Shown piece by piece: positions 2,649-44,281 of a stretch of 50,320 nt of DNA. Within the stretch, counting starts at the first letter, position 1, and each line of letters starts with the position of its first letter. Source of the stretch: Sphingomonadales bacterium (GTDB lineage: Bacteria; Pseudomonadota; Alphaproteobacteria; Sphingomonadales; Sphingomonadaceae); contig JAIXUQ010000041.1 in the NCBI GenBank assembly GCA_027483465.1, forward strand, positions 1 through 50,320, written 5' to 3'. A model generated the notes under the pieces. The model had not been told where the DNA came from. It worked only from the letters and a program-made list of their open reading frames with translations, and did not search any database. The position numbers and the translations under genes were made by a program.

Positions 2649-4021
2649 CCGGCGCGGTGCGCCTCGCCCATGCGGCGGATGGCGGCCAGCTTGGCGTGCA
2701 GCGGGGCCCAGTCGTCAGCGCTGGCAATCGGCGCCCAGATCGCCTCCACCTCGTCGATCAACATGGTGCAGGGCGCCGCATCCGCCCAATAGGGATGGCT
2801 GGGCGCGCCGCTGGCGAAATCGCCGATCAGCGCCTGAAAGTCCGTGAACGCATCGTGGCTGTAGTGATGATCGGCCGGGGATGGCCCGCGCCGCACGCCG
2901 CCCCGCCAATCGAAGAAGAAGCGATCCGGGTCCATCTGCGTCGCCACCAATGCCTTCTGCATGGCCGCCACCAGCGCCTCGTCCTCCGCCGGGCCCAACC
3001 GCTTTGCCCCCAGCCGGCCCAGCATGGCATCAGACAGGGCGGCGCGATAACGCTGCGGATAGGTTTCCAGCGGGCCCTTCAGCTCGTCGGTCTCGGCGAT
3101 CAGCCGCAACGCCCCGCCCAGCTGAAACAGGTTCCACTGCAACGCCTCGGCCTGGCGGCCAAAGGCATACAGCCCGTAATGATCGAAATAGGCGGCGGTG
3201 AAGCCGGCATCCCAGGCCGGGGCAAAGCGCCAGGGGCCATAATCAAAGCTCTCGCCGGTGATGTTGATATTGTCGGTATTCAACACGCCGTGGACAAAGC
3301 CGGCGGCCATGAACTGCGCCGCCATGCGCGCCGCACCCTGCACCGCATGGTCCACCAGCGCCGCCACCGGCGTGGGGCCGCTGGCCTGCGGCGCCAGGTG
3401 GGTGAGGCAATAATCCACCAGCCGGGTCAGCCCCTCGCGGTTCTGGTGAAAGGCCTGCCGCTGGAAACTGCCATAGCGGACATGGCTGTGATTGAGCCTG
3501 ACCAGCACCGCCGAACGGGTGGGCGACGGCTCATCGTTGCGGGCCAGCGCCTCGCCGGTTTCGATCACGCTGAACGTGCGGCTGGTGTTCACGCCCAGCG
3601 CCTCCAGCATTTCGGTGGCCAGGATCTCGCGCACCGCGCCCTTCAATGTCAGGCGGCCATCGCCGGCGCGGCTGTAGGGGGTGGTGCCGCTGCCCTTGGT
3701 GCCCAGATCGAGCAGCCGGCCCCGCTGATCCCGGCACTGCCCGAACAGGAAGCCGCGGCCATCGCCCAGATCGGGGTTGTAGGTGCGGAACTGGTGGCCG
3801 TGATAGCGCAGCGCCAGCGGCTGCGGCAGGCTGCCCGGCAGCGGGGCAAAGCGGCCGAAATGCCGGCACCAATCCGCATCGGAAAGCCCGTCCAGCCCCA
3901 CCTCGGCAGCGGCGCGATCGTTGCGGAACCGCAGGATCGTCTGCGGGAAATCCGCCGGCTGCACCGGATCAAAGAAATCCGGGCCCAGTCCCAGGATGGC
4001 GGTTTCGGGGGTGAAGATCAT
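2645..4021 (-). CDS. selO: Protein adenylyltransferase SelO (YdiU/UPF0061)
   Basis: 458 residues, close to the usual 470-490 of bacterial SelO. SelO is a pseudokinase-fold enzyme that transfers AMP from ATP to Ser, Thr or Tyr of target proteins and is linked to redox stress. Family signatures are clear: ALRYHGHQFRTYNPDLGDGR at 70-89, GTKGSGTTPYSRAGDGR at 107-123 with Lys109, and VLNTDNINITGESFDYGP at 246-263, where Asp250, Asn251 and Asp260 match the catalytic and metal ligands known for the family. There is no Cys or selenocysteine at the C-terminus, unlike some relatives. ATG 4021 lies 27 bp after the tetR-like gene on the same strand, so the two may be co-transcribed. Confidence 0.95.
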   Translation of the reverse strand: MIFTPETAILGLGPDFFDPVQPADFPQTILRFRNDRAAAEVGLDGLSDADWCRHFGRFAPLPGSLPQPLALRYHGHQFRTYNPDLGDGRGFLFGQCRDQRGRLLDLGTKGSGTTPYSRAGDGRLTLKGAVREILATEMLEALGVNTSRTFSVIETGEALARNDEPSPTRSAVLVRLNHSHVRYGSFQRQAFHQNREGLTRLVDYCLTHLAPQASGPTPVAALVDHAVQGAARMAAQFMAAGFVHGVLNTDNINITGESFDYGPWRFAPAWDAGFTAAYFDHYGLYAFGRQAEALQWNLFQLGGALRLIAETDELKGPLETYPQRYRAALSDAMLGRLGAKRLGPAEDEALVAAMQKALVATQMDPDRFFFDWRGGVRRGPSPADHHYSHDAFTDFQALIGDFASGAPSHPYWADAAPCTMLIDEVEAIWAPIASADDWAPLHAKLAAIRRMGEAHRAG

Positions 4022-42204: not shown

Positions 42205-42963
42205 ATGCTGAAATTCGCTTCCCTCGCGCTCGCGCTGCTGCTGGCCAGCCCGGCCAGCGCCACCGCCGCCGACGATTTCCGCGCCGGCAACTGGGCCGCC
42301 GTCGTGCAGGGCGGCCATGCCGAAAACACCCCTGACAGCCTGATCCTGGCCGGCCGCGCCCAACTGTGGATCGCCGGCTACCAAACCGCCGACAAGGCCC
42401 GCGCCATGGCCATCATCGCGGCGGCCGAAGCCGATTTCGACAAGGCACTGGCCCGCGCCCCCGGCAATGTCGAAGCCCAGCTGCAAAAGGCCGTCGCCAT
42501 CGCCTACCGCGCCCAGCTCACCAAGGGCATCGGCCTGGCCAAAGACGTCCGCCGCCGCTTCGAAGCCATCCGCACCGCCCACCCTGGCAACAGCCTGGCC
42601 TGGGGCGCACTCGGCGGCTGGCACGGCGGCGCCGTCGCCACCGTCGGCAGCTTCCTCGCCGGCACCGTGCTGGGCGCGAAGAAGTCCGAAATGGAACGCT
42701 GCTACGCCCAAGCCCTGCGCCTCAGCCCCACCCTGCCCTCCACCCGCACCTTCTTCGCAATCACCCTCCTCGATCTCGACCCCACCAACGCCACCCGCGC
42801 CGCCGGCCTGCTGAAAGGCATCGAAACCCTGCCCGCCGAAGACGGCTTCGAAGCCAGCATGAAACAACAAGGCATCGAACTCGCCAACGCCCTGGCCCGA
42901 GGCAACGCCACCAGCGCCCAGGCCACGGCACGGCGGCTGAAGGCGTTCAGCCGGCTGGGGTAG
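42205..42963 (+). CDS. Exported TPR-like hypothetical protein
   Basis: 252 residues from ATG 42205, which begins a signal peptide (MLKFASLALALLLASPASATA). The mature part has TPR-like helices (AAEADFDKALARAPGNVEAQ, then ERCYAQALRLSPTLPSTRTF) and a central Gly-rich stretch (WGALGGWHGGAVATVGSFLA). Function unknown; similar proteins are, to my recollection, common unknowns in sphingomonads. It is divergent from the BdcA-like gene (109 bp) and is followed 30 bp downstream by the left copy of the 43-bp inverted repeat, which could be its terminator. Confidence 0.8.
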   Translation: MLKFASLALALLLASPASATAADDFRAGNWAAVVQGGHAENTPDSLILAGRAQLWIAGYQTADKARAMAIIAAAEADFDKALARAPGNVEAQLQKAVAIAYRAQLTKGIGLAKDVRRRFEAIRTAHPGNSLAWGALGGWHGGAVATVGSFLAGTVLGAKKSEMERCYAQALRLSPTLPSTRTFFAITLLDLDPTNATRAAGLLKGIETLPAEDGFEASMKQQGIELANALARGNATSAQATARRLKAFSRLG

Positions 42964-42992: not shown

Positions 42993-43035
42993 GCCTCCGG
43001 CGGGCAGGGTCGCAGACCCTGCACCCGTTCGTTTT
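42993..43035 (+). repeat. Left copy of a perfect 43-bp inverted repeat
   Basis: Reads GCCTCCGGCGGGCAGGGTCG at its left end and is matched base for base by the reverse complement of 44239-44281. Outside the 43 bp the flanks differ. It starts 30 bp after the stop of the exported TPR gene and carries its own hairpin. Confidence 0.9.
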
Positions 43036-43037
43036 TT
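43001..43037 (+). terminator. Intrinsic terminator in the left repeat
   Basis: GCAGGGTC (43004-43011) pairs with GACCCTGC (43015-43022) around GCA, extended by CGG/CCG across a small bulge. A T-run at 43032-43037 follows. On the plus strand this is a fair Rho-independent terminator for the exported TPR gene. Confidence 0.65.
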
Positions 43038-43110
43038 GTTGCTCAAGTTGGAGGCGGTTCCTCCTTTGATCCGAGCCTCCCTATGCAATGGAGGGAGAGG
43101 AAACATCGAA

Positions 43111-43132
43111 GCCTGACCGCTAGCGGTCAGGC
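43111..43132. repeat. Perfect 22-bp palindrome downstream of mrr
   Basis: GCCTGACCGCT and AGCGGTCAGGC form an uninterrupted 22-bp palindrome, 26 bp past the mrr stop on the minus strand. As RNA it would form a strong hairpin with a tight loop. It may terminate mrr transcription, though the T-run is poor on both sides. Two weaker hairpins (GGAGG/CCTCC and CCTCC/GGAGG) occur between it and the left 43-bp repeat. Confidence 0.7.
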
Positions 43133-43157
43133 GGTTTCTGATACCTAGACGCGGATT

Positions 43158-44054
43158 CTAGTTAAACTGTTGGAAAAACAGTCTATCGACACTCACCTCT
43201 TCAGACCGTACCTCGCGAACAGTAACGCCCAACCGCCGTTCCTTCAGAAGGTCGCATAAGAGTTCCCCGTCCACCAAGTCGATGGCGGGAGCGCCATCGC
43301 GCGTTGCCTCTCGCCGGGCGTCAGCGGTAAAGCTACCCGTTGTGATTATGAGACCTTTGTCGGCTCGGCCCTGCATTGCGCCTCTGAAGTCACGGACTAT
43401 TGGCGAAGAGACAGCGCCGGCGTAACGCTTGCATTGAAACAGAACCTGGAATGAAATCAGGTTCATGCGGAGTACACCGACTCCATCTATGCCTCCATCA
43501 GAGGATTTTCCGGTCACCTCAACTTTGACGAATCCACTTTCACGCAGGAGTCTCTGGCTGAGTCGTTCGAAAGCGGTCGGATCCATCGCTTTTAGTGCTG
43601 TAAGCAACTGCTCGCGCCAATCTCCGGCGTCTTCAGTCATGGCTGCGGGTTCAAAGGAAAGTTCATCTGGTGATGCTTCCTCAGCGGCGCTTGCCTCTGA
43701 TGCCGCCTTTCGTCGAGTGTTATACTCGCGAACGGCTGCCGATATTCGACTATGGATGGCTGCTTCGCCCTCTGCGAGGGCAAGCCGGCCACTTTCAGTC
43801 AGCAACCAGACCCCTCGGCGCTCATTTGCCAGGAACCCGGCTAGCTTTAAGTAACTTCGTGCCCATGCTATCCTATTGAGAATAATTGGCGATCCGCTTC
43901 TCTCGTGTGTTTCGGCGAGATCAGCATCGTTGAATGCAAACTCATCAACAAGCCGCTGTTCAATTTCCTCAATTGATGCCGATCCGCCCAACGCCTCAAG
44001 GAGCCGGAGGATTGGCAGATAGAAATCATCCTTACGCAAATTTTGCACTTTCAT
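43158..44054 (-). CDS. mrr: Mrr-type type IV restriction endonuclease
   Basis: 298 residues from ATG 44054, close to E. coli Mrr (304). An N-terminal winged-helix Mrr_N domain (LPILRLLEALGGSASIEEIE, then GVWLLTESGRLALAEGEAAI) covers about 10-110. A charged linker follows, then the catalytic domain: SGFVKVEVTGKSSDGGIDGV with Asp190, FQVLFQCKRYAG with Gln207 and Lys209, and GALQ-like FRGAMQGRADKGLIITTGSF. Mrr cuts DNA carrying certain methylated bases, so it needs no partner methylase. Base composition is well below that of its neighbours. It is bracketed by the perfect inverted repeats at 42993-43035 and 44239-44281. Confidence 0.93.
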   Translation of the reverse strand: MKVQNLRKDDFYLPILRLLEALGGSASIEEIEQRLVDEFAFNDADLAETHERSGSPIILNRIAWARSYLKLAGFLANERRGVWLLTESGRLALAEGEAAIHSRISAAVREYNTRRKAASEASAAEEASPDELSFEPAAMTEDAGDWREQLLTALKAMDPTAFERLSQRLLRESGFVKVEVTGKSSDGGIDGVGVLRMNLISFQVLFQCKRYAGAVSSPIVRDFRGAMQGRADKGLIITTGSFTADARREATRDGAPAIDLVDGELLCDLLKERRLGVTVREVRSEEVSVDRLFFQQFN

Positions 44055-44238
44055 CGATCGATGCTTCCTCGCTTTTCGGAACTTTGAATATGTAGTGCGA
44101 TCCCAGAACCGAAAGATGCGATGTCCGAACTGGCCGATCAACAGATGATTTTCGTTGAACCCACAAACGACATAACGATTGAAGCAAGGTCACCAGACCG
44201 CAGCATTCGGCTCAAATCGGCCGCCAAAGCACCACCCG

Positions 44239-44281
44239 AAAACGAACGGGTGCAGGGTCTGCGACCCTGCCCGCCGGAGGC
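44239..44281 (-). repeat. Right copy of the perfect 43-bp inverted repeat
   Basis: Reverse complement of 42993-43035 with no mismatch. It ends 11 bp before the hisE stop codon. Read on the minus strand the same hairpin appears, followed by TTTTC, so it is a weaker terminator for the his genes. The 180 bp between the mrr start and this copy is AT-richer and should contain the mrr promoter. Confidence 0.9.

Follow-up and report, generated by a model that had tools for sequence, protein, structure and literature searches.

How single accessory genes enter a chromosome with no visible mobile element is an open question, and one locus in the 50,320-nucleotide stretch of DNA analyzed here (the window) poses it in compact form. 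A preliminary description had singled out a solitary mrr restriction gene, much AT-richer than its surroundings and framed by perfect 43-bp inverted repeats, as a small repeat-bounded islet, and had offered two ways by which it could move: a transposase acting in trans on terminal inverted repeats, or exchange by recombination between copies of the repeat. Which of these, if either, accounts for the islet? The reading that we favor, at a probability of roughly 0.57, is that the mrr islet is one filled cassette slot of a genus-wide set, swapped via recombination at shared hairpins. Dispersed, near-identical boundaries would be a simple answer to the question of entry.

Throughout, G000 is the window's genome and its congeners (the genus is probably Sandarakinorhabdus) bear other G numbers, for 24 genus genomes in total; G004 is apparently S. 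limnophila DSM 17366 (the place of its mrr match equals that in NZ_ATVO01000008.1). The term slot denotes two copies of the hairpin element described below that face each other, and the interior between them is the cargo.

An AT-rich mrr gene between two hairpin elements

The repeats and the compositional contrast were both confirmed. The two arms (42993-43035 and 44239-44281) are 43 nt long, 100% complementary, and 1203 nt apart; among the 25 longest inverted pairs listed from the 6 kb searched, this was the longest and the sole perfect one. GC content was 0.533 for the mrr open reading frame (ORF; 43158-44141) and 0.534 for the interior, compared with 0.691 and 0.686 in the DNA to either side and 0.680 across the whole window. 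The product matched both Mrr_cat (PF04471; E = 1.6e-30) and Mrr_N (PF14338; E = 3.3e-21), the domain combination of Mrr type IV restriction enzymes, as well as mREase_IV in PADLOC (E = 2.2e-28), while a PDB sequence search with Mrr gave no match. Judging from its family, Mrr itself would cut modified foreign DNA. No second convincing ORF was seen in the ORF list of the interior, and the two flanking genes, TPR-like on the left and hisE on the right, converge on the slot. The features are as follows.

42205..42963, + strand: TPR-like gene, left flank (TPR matches under the curated cut-off)
42993..43035, + strand: left hairpin element, inward-facing; starts 29 nt past the TPR-like gene's stop codon; stem at 43004-43011 / 43015-43022
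43036..44238, no strand: cargo interval of the slot; GC, 53%; BLAST gave no match in the same-slot interiors of G001, G004, G011, and G020
43111..43132, no strand: palindrome 3' of mrr, which may be the cargo's own terminator (1.7 sites of this kind expected by chance in the scan)
43158..44054, - strand: mrr, type IV-like restriction endonuclease; ATG near the start of the S. limnophila homology, with the ORF open to a TTG at 44141
44239..44281, - strand: right hairpin element, inward-facing; starts 11 nt past the hisE stop codon
44293..44607, - strand: hisE (PRA-PH), right flank

A dispersed family of hairpin elements

The repeat is not private to mrr. A BLAST search of G000 with the 43 bp gave 35 matches at E < 0.002, and pattern searches gave 21 exact-arm matches or, with a shorter pattern, 32 exact and 3 accepted one-mismatch matches; the total came to 33 elements after removal of the double count of a lone palindrome (G000:C72:26128-26168). 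Because the genome holds 33 copies, the perfect identity of the two mrr arms mostly reflects two copies of a common variant. All 24 genus genomes were positive, with 1 to 238 strict matches each, and in a family-wide sample 22 of the 397 genomes carried the element, spread over 4 of the 96 genera. Copy numbers ranged from 136 to 238 in some species (G010, G022, G026, G180, and G184) versus 1 to 5 in others, and so the element family grows and contracts quickly.

The element runs from an A-rich lead through a conserved arm and a hairpin to a T-rich tail, usually directly 3' of gene ends; its consensus, GCCTCCGGCGG, has an 8-bp stem, a short loop, ACCC, and the T-rich tail. Across 198 element sides, the last 10 nt upstream were 82-84% purine, and positions +35 to +44 were 53-65% T. 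The stem is conserved as a structure: in 16 analyst-chosen variants, 128 of 128 cells were paired, with 17 double changes, which none of 500 shuffles equaled. A search of Rfam gave a single match, far under its gathering score.

Elements pair into inward-facing slots

Complete element lists of G000, G004, G008, G011, and G020 gave 76 inward, 4 outward, and 19 tandem neighbors less than 3.5 kb apart, where about 16 of any kind would be expected at random (G001, also listed in full, was omitted here because too many of its elements lie at contig ends). The inward spans in these five genomes were bimodal, at 98-299 bp and at least 510 bp; G001 has one of 379 bp. From six genomes, 99 slots were collected, and their context, GC content, and core counts come from regions fetched around elements. 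The preliminary description had allowed that the repeat might be a scattered terminator that rarely brackets genes: scattered it is, and both its shape and its position recall a terminator, but a span of at least 480 bp was found for 39 of the 99 slots.

By the analyst's own ORF calls, rather than those of a gene finder, both flanks present stop codons in 52 slots, one a stop and the other a start in 31, and both starts in 7 (probably errors in part), with 9 incomplete. Among the 189 element sides that could be classified, 142 face a stop codon, at a median distance of 13.5 nt. Such placement is what the best-surviving alternative, which we nevertheless consider unlikely, would predict: the element would be the clade's favored terminator, convergent neighbors would each keep one, and foreign genes would happen to survive best in the insulated gaps, with no exchange via the element. 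The convergence of 52 of the 99 slots, the A-rich lead, and the T-rich tail at +35 to +44 all suit that account. Yet a simple terminator scan did not report the element, and in the 31 codirectional slots one element lies upstream of a start codon; about a third of slots are non-convergent, an arrangement that simple paired terminators would not explain.

The same slot holds different cargo

Comparison of the hisE junction across relatives, as the preliminary description had proposed, found sites that lack mrr and keep both repeats. The slot spans 1289 bp with mrr in G000; without a gene, it spans 225 bp in G001, 171 bp in each of G004 and G020, and 98 bp in G011. Among 24 hisE loci read, a TPR-like gene adjoins in 9, and 5 of these 9 have the pair (the five genomes just named); at the junction in G006, one element is intact and a different hairpin interrupts the other. 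The junctions in G007, G018, and G021 are element-free.

Other junctions behave alike. Between genes named by eye from L100 as phosphoglycerate-mutase-like and thiolase, the slot holds mrr in G004 (1134 bp) and usher/chaperone genes in G020 (4592 bp), and spans 231 bp in G008; G011 has two pairs there, of 634 and 619 bp, which hold two other cassettes and have a gene in between. A third slot carries RES in G000 (801 bp), SUKH in G004 (680 bp), and unknown cargo in G011 (758 bp), and spans 232 bp in G020. A methylase occupies slot G011:C1:150116, and an MmeI-like enzyme occupies its G020 counterpart. In the 56 listed comparisons with both flanks matched, interiors were the same in 14, partly so in 4, and unrelated in 38, counts that are non-independent, with the unrelated class inflated by distant species; short interiors are also difficult to match. 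Within the trio G004/G011/G020, where flanks are 81-99% identical, 27 orthologous-slot comparisons gave 14 same interiors (all of those found), 1 partly the same, and 12 unrelated, two of the last being under 40 nt. Some orthologous slots with 90-97% identical flanks hold unrelated cargo. Exchange of slot contents is well supported.

What the slots hold is mostly AT-rich: 38 of 39 long interiors fell below the DNA flanking them in GC content (median, 0.573 versus 0.656 for the flanks of all slots). Low-GC DNA is not confined to slots, as had been considered; in 394 kb of G004, on contigs picked knowing that they held slots (0.65% of that DNA), 2 of 19 low-GC segments lay in slots, or 2 of the 10 of at least 500 bp. 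A Pfam scan (E = 0.01) of 45 ORFs in or beside slots identified Mrr, GNAT (twice), RES, DUF6404, a KAP NTPase (PADLOC PDC-S20), an AAA/TPR protein, PIN-TPR-GreABC, VOC, CheB, MerB, SDR, SUKH, barstar, NTP_transf_2, a beta-lactamase-fold protein, an N6_N4 methylase, MBL (PDC-M48B), Imm-NTF2-2, GIY-YIG, the MmeI-like type IIG enzyme, and usher/chaperone/SCPU genes; 15 of the 45 had no family match at that threshold. Searching for two of the cargo families yielded little, which counts against the cassette reading: in the 24 genus genomes, a search for SUKH gave 2 hits, 1 of them in a slot, and a search for RES gave 22 hits, 1 in a slot.

One phage-integrase-family protein (a tyrosine recombinase) was found among the 45 ORFs, in a 9.2-kb interval of G000:C32 that carries two-component genes and AcrB as well and is possibly not a single slot. 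There, at L036:12368-13828, the 221-aa phage-integrase-family protein and an unknown 258-aa ORF, both of lower GC, lie close to an element.

mrr recurs in a second slot

The closest Mrr to that of the window is encoded in S. limnophila (87% protein identity, with two in-frame stops), inside a pair at a different slot whose right element lies upstream of a start codon. At the DNA level the two copies are 79% identical over 889 aligned positions, and the homology covers the gene alone (window 43171-44057), ending 135-182 nt from the element on three of the four sides and 11 nt from it at the 3' side in S. limnophila. The mrr cassette may have moved together with its elements, but this gene-only homology does not demonstrate such a move. 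Because the mrr DNA identity (79%) equals that of the hisE flank (79-81%), species-to-species transfer of mrr is not needed. A survey of 100 Mrr loci found the pair only at L071 and L100, both of which are the S. limnophila copy, and a single element at L087. No other cargo was clearly shared between two slots among the long slots; two TPR proteins match weakly, and there was one 50-residue tblastx match.

Breakpoints of two swaps fall within the elements

G004 and G011 were compared over 206 kb of synteny, on contigs picked with the knowledge that slots were present; the five slots make up about 1% of this DNA. Of 13 indels or replacements of at least 300 bp, 2 were at slots and 11 elsewhere; where at least 300 bp was present on both sides, 4 events remained, 2 of them at slots. 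That most indels lie off the slots accords with terminators and neutral insertion. In both slot swaps, however, the break on either side lies 38-45 bp inward of the element's outer edge, and random insertion would not place both breakpoints of two resolved swaps inside elements.

In 22 pairs that were picked by the analyst from the 38 unrelated-interior comparisons, ungapped identity fell from 1.00 across the element's first 17 nt to 0.72 at positions 35-43, 0.50 at positions 44-53, and 0.32 deeper inside. It was also low in the 25 nt just outside the element, at 0.54 in different-interior pairs versus 0.73 in same-interior pairs; gaps interfere with the alignment there, and the poor match counts against exchange through the element. 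The hairpin core differed in 12 of 28 non-independent comparisons with matching flanks and interior (14 slot pairs, three genomes), and its changes amounted to 30 of 172 positions plus 3 length changes, versus 76 of 1048 positions in the interiors. Such switches of the core from one family variant to another, in elements that are otherwise conserved, suggest sequence exchange among dispersed copies.

Candidate movers of slot cargo

A nonautonomous transposon, in which the pair would be terminal inverted repeats moved with the cargo by a trans-acting transposase and the short pairs would be MITE-like, as REPINs are for RAYT, is improbable. REP families are known to be paired and to follow genes (PMC3733652, PMC3116915), and the perfect 43-bp arms at mrr would fit. 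So would a slightly raised number of pairs with agreeing stem-loops, seen in two groups: 3 among 10 long pairs in G000, where 1.0 would be expected (P = 0.056), and 4 among 18 short pairs in G008, where 1.6 would be (P = 0.034). In most other groups, though, agreement was at or under chance and the left and right cores usually differ; after this comparison, perfect arm identity was dropped as a mark of recent transposition. Target duplications of at least 4 bp were found at 0 of 99 slots (shuffled mean, 0.8), and in several species the pairs occupy an unchanged junction despite changed interiors. PF01797 (Y1_Tnp, RAYT) was detected in 1 of the 24 genus genomes, which is not the window's, although the search was positive in 5 of the 14 genomes used as controls. 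The first of the two routes originally offered, a trans-acting transposase, fares badly on these results, with Y1/RAYT as the family searched, and on the relatives' empty sites, which keep both repeats.

Site-specific cassette recombination, by a recombinase recognizing the hairpin in an integron analogue with inverted instead of direct sites, is very improbable: the fold kept by paired changes, the concentration of variation in the hairpin core, and the GNAT, SUKH, barstar, VOC, and GIY-YIG cargo, which we take to resemble that of integron cassettes, speak for it, but inverted sites would favor inversion, and none of 14 comparisons had an inverted interior, and the one tyrosine recombinase among the 45 ORFs scanned, that of G000:C32, also considered as a general mover, has no homologue in the other fetched loci.

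Since the slots have a common boundary, and since Y1 transposase, target duplications, and matching ends all fail, recombination at the hairpins is the simplest mover found. The second route of the preliminary description, exchange by recombination between repeat copies, accordingly fits best with the same-slot cargo swaps, the mrr in a second slot, and the two swaps with breakpoints in the repeat. The roughly 34 nt that slots share at their edges would be the basis for exchange between slots: incoming DNA bearing a cassette with its own element pair, or another slot of the same genome, would swap the interior by recombination within both hairpins, through gene conversion or a double crossover. 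Insulation of transcription is another possible role of the hairpins, one that would let newly arrived cargo leave its neighbors undisturbed. A stretch of 34-43 bp is short for RecA exchange, which counts against hairpin recombination. So do the position of most indels off the slots, the finding of mrr alone in two slots, and the lack of inverted interiors in the 14 comparisons, as inverted repeats could invert what they enclose. The odds of this reading, and of the wider one below, were lowered slightly because the homology at mrr ends before it reaches the elements and because the synteny comparison was not slot-blind.

More tentatively, at somewhat under even odds, Sandarakinorhabdus and two or three neighbor genera may possess a cassette system that spans the genome and has no integrase. 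Dozens of slots on the chromosome would share one interchangeable hairpin boundary, and their mostly single-gene cargo, including restriction and immunity genes, would be swapped within and between species by recombination at the hairpins. Many gene ends would then become docking sites, a reading directly testable in a freshwater bacterium, and the paired hairpin would be a sequence handle for collecting accessory and defense genes from the clade.

Relation to known systems

Neisserial minimal mobile elements recombine through their flanking genes. The slots here differ in sharing one dispersed hairpin boundary, and a cassette could in principle fit any slot. Those elements are whole-gene cassette sites (Saunders and Snyder 2002, as described in the accessible part of PMC3898611), and the likeness lies in different whole-gene cassettes between the same two conserved genes, which the slots also hold. 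They are defined by incorporation solely by homologous recombination; here, as seen from sequences alone, two swaps have breakpoints in shared repeats and no target duplication of at least 4 bp was found, as such incorporation would predict. By this analogy, the hairpin slots are like neisserial minimal mobile elements in their working and REP-like in their boundary.

REPs and REPINs (PMC3116915, PMC3733652) are short multicopy palindromes, often paired in opposite orientation and mostly 3' of genes, between convergent or codirectional ORFs. The slots share with REPINs the inverted pair of REP-like hairpins but not the RAYT partner, with no Y1/RAYT match in 23 of 24 genomes. Their interiors also differ, being mostly unrelated between slots (except the inner-REP slots of G008, below) and in many cases gene-sized, and the element has a long unpaired arm and, by eye, no GTAG or CGTC tag. 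From insertion sequences and MITEs the slots are set apart by the lack of target-site duplications, by ends that mostly differ, and by empty hisE sites that keep their elements, though the G007, G018, and G021 junctions have none.

Integron gene cassettes often pair single-gene cargo with an adjacent structured site that varies in sequence but keeps its fold. The slots share these traits, yet their sites are inverted and scattered over the chromosome, with one tyrosine recombinase in 45 cargo ORFs, and no integron-type array of direct attC sites was present in the loci read.

Neisserial dRS3/NIME repeats and Correia elements are likewise dispersed small repeats at proposed places of gene gain, loss, and exchange; dRS3 are 20-bp repeats, often arrayed and a target of phage integrase, and in Correia elements the inverted repeats are 26 bp long and accompanied by a TA duplication (PMC3898611, in the part available to us). 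The same part of that source describes no paired slots of the hairpin-bounded kind. A search of the literature found neither the letters of the element nor a description of such slots, a weak result since subscription papers and preprints fall outside it.

Variant and nested elements

Several arrangements depart from the plain pair. Lone 41-nt palindromes, with two arms around one stem-loop, occur at G000:C72:26128-26168 (L038:14129-14169) and, imperfectly, at G004:C4:82184-82224 (L172); these are perhaps collapsed pairs. An arm split by about 39 nt of other hairpin-forming sequence, by eye a nested small repeat, was seen in L049 near 1480 (G006) and at L229:5800 (G008). At L041:5276-5517 (G000:C107), arms are doubled on both sides of a 200-bp slot, the extra copies lacking the hairpin and lying outside the true ones.

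In G001, 20 of 35 strict element matches lie at most 932 bp from the end of a contig, toward which their slot side points (contigs C53, C75, C80, C81, C91, C92, C108, C113, C120, C129, C36, C39, C41, C57, C89, C96, and C112). The assembly might break at slots; variable interiors would have this effect, but so might the repeats.

Slots of 231-238 bp contain a central second inverted pair, of another REP (GTCATGCTGGCGCAGGCCAGCATCCA), within spacers that differ: L212:1798-2029 and 2781-3017, L213:1683-1919, L215, L218, L219, L220, L222, and L224 in G008, and L242 in G011. The slot seems to be a landing place for other repeats too.
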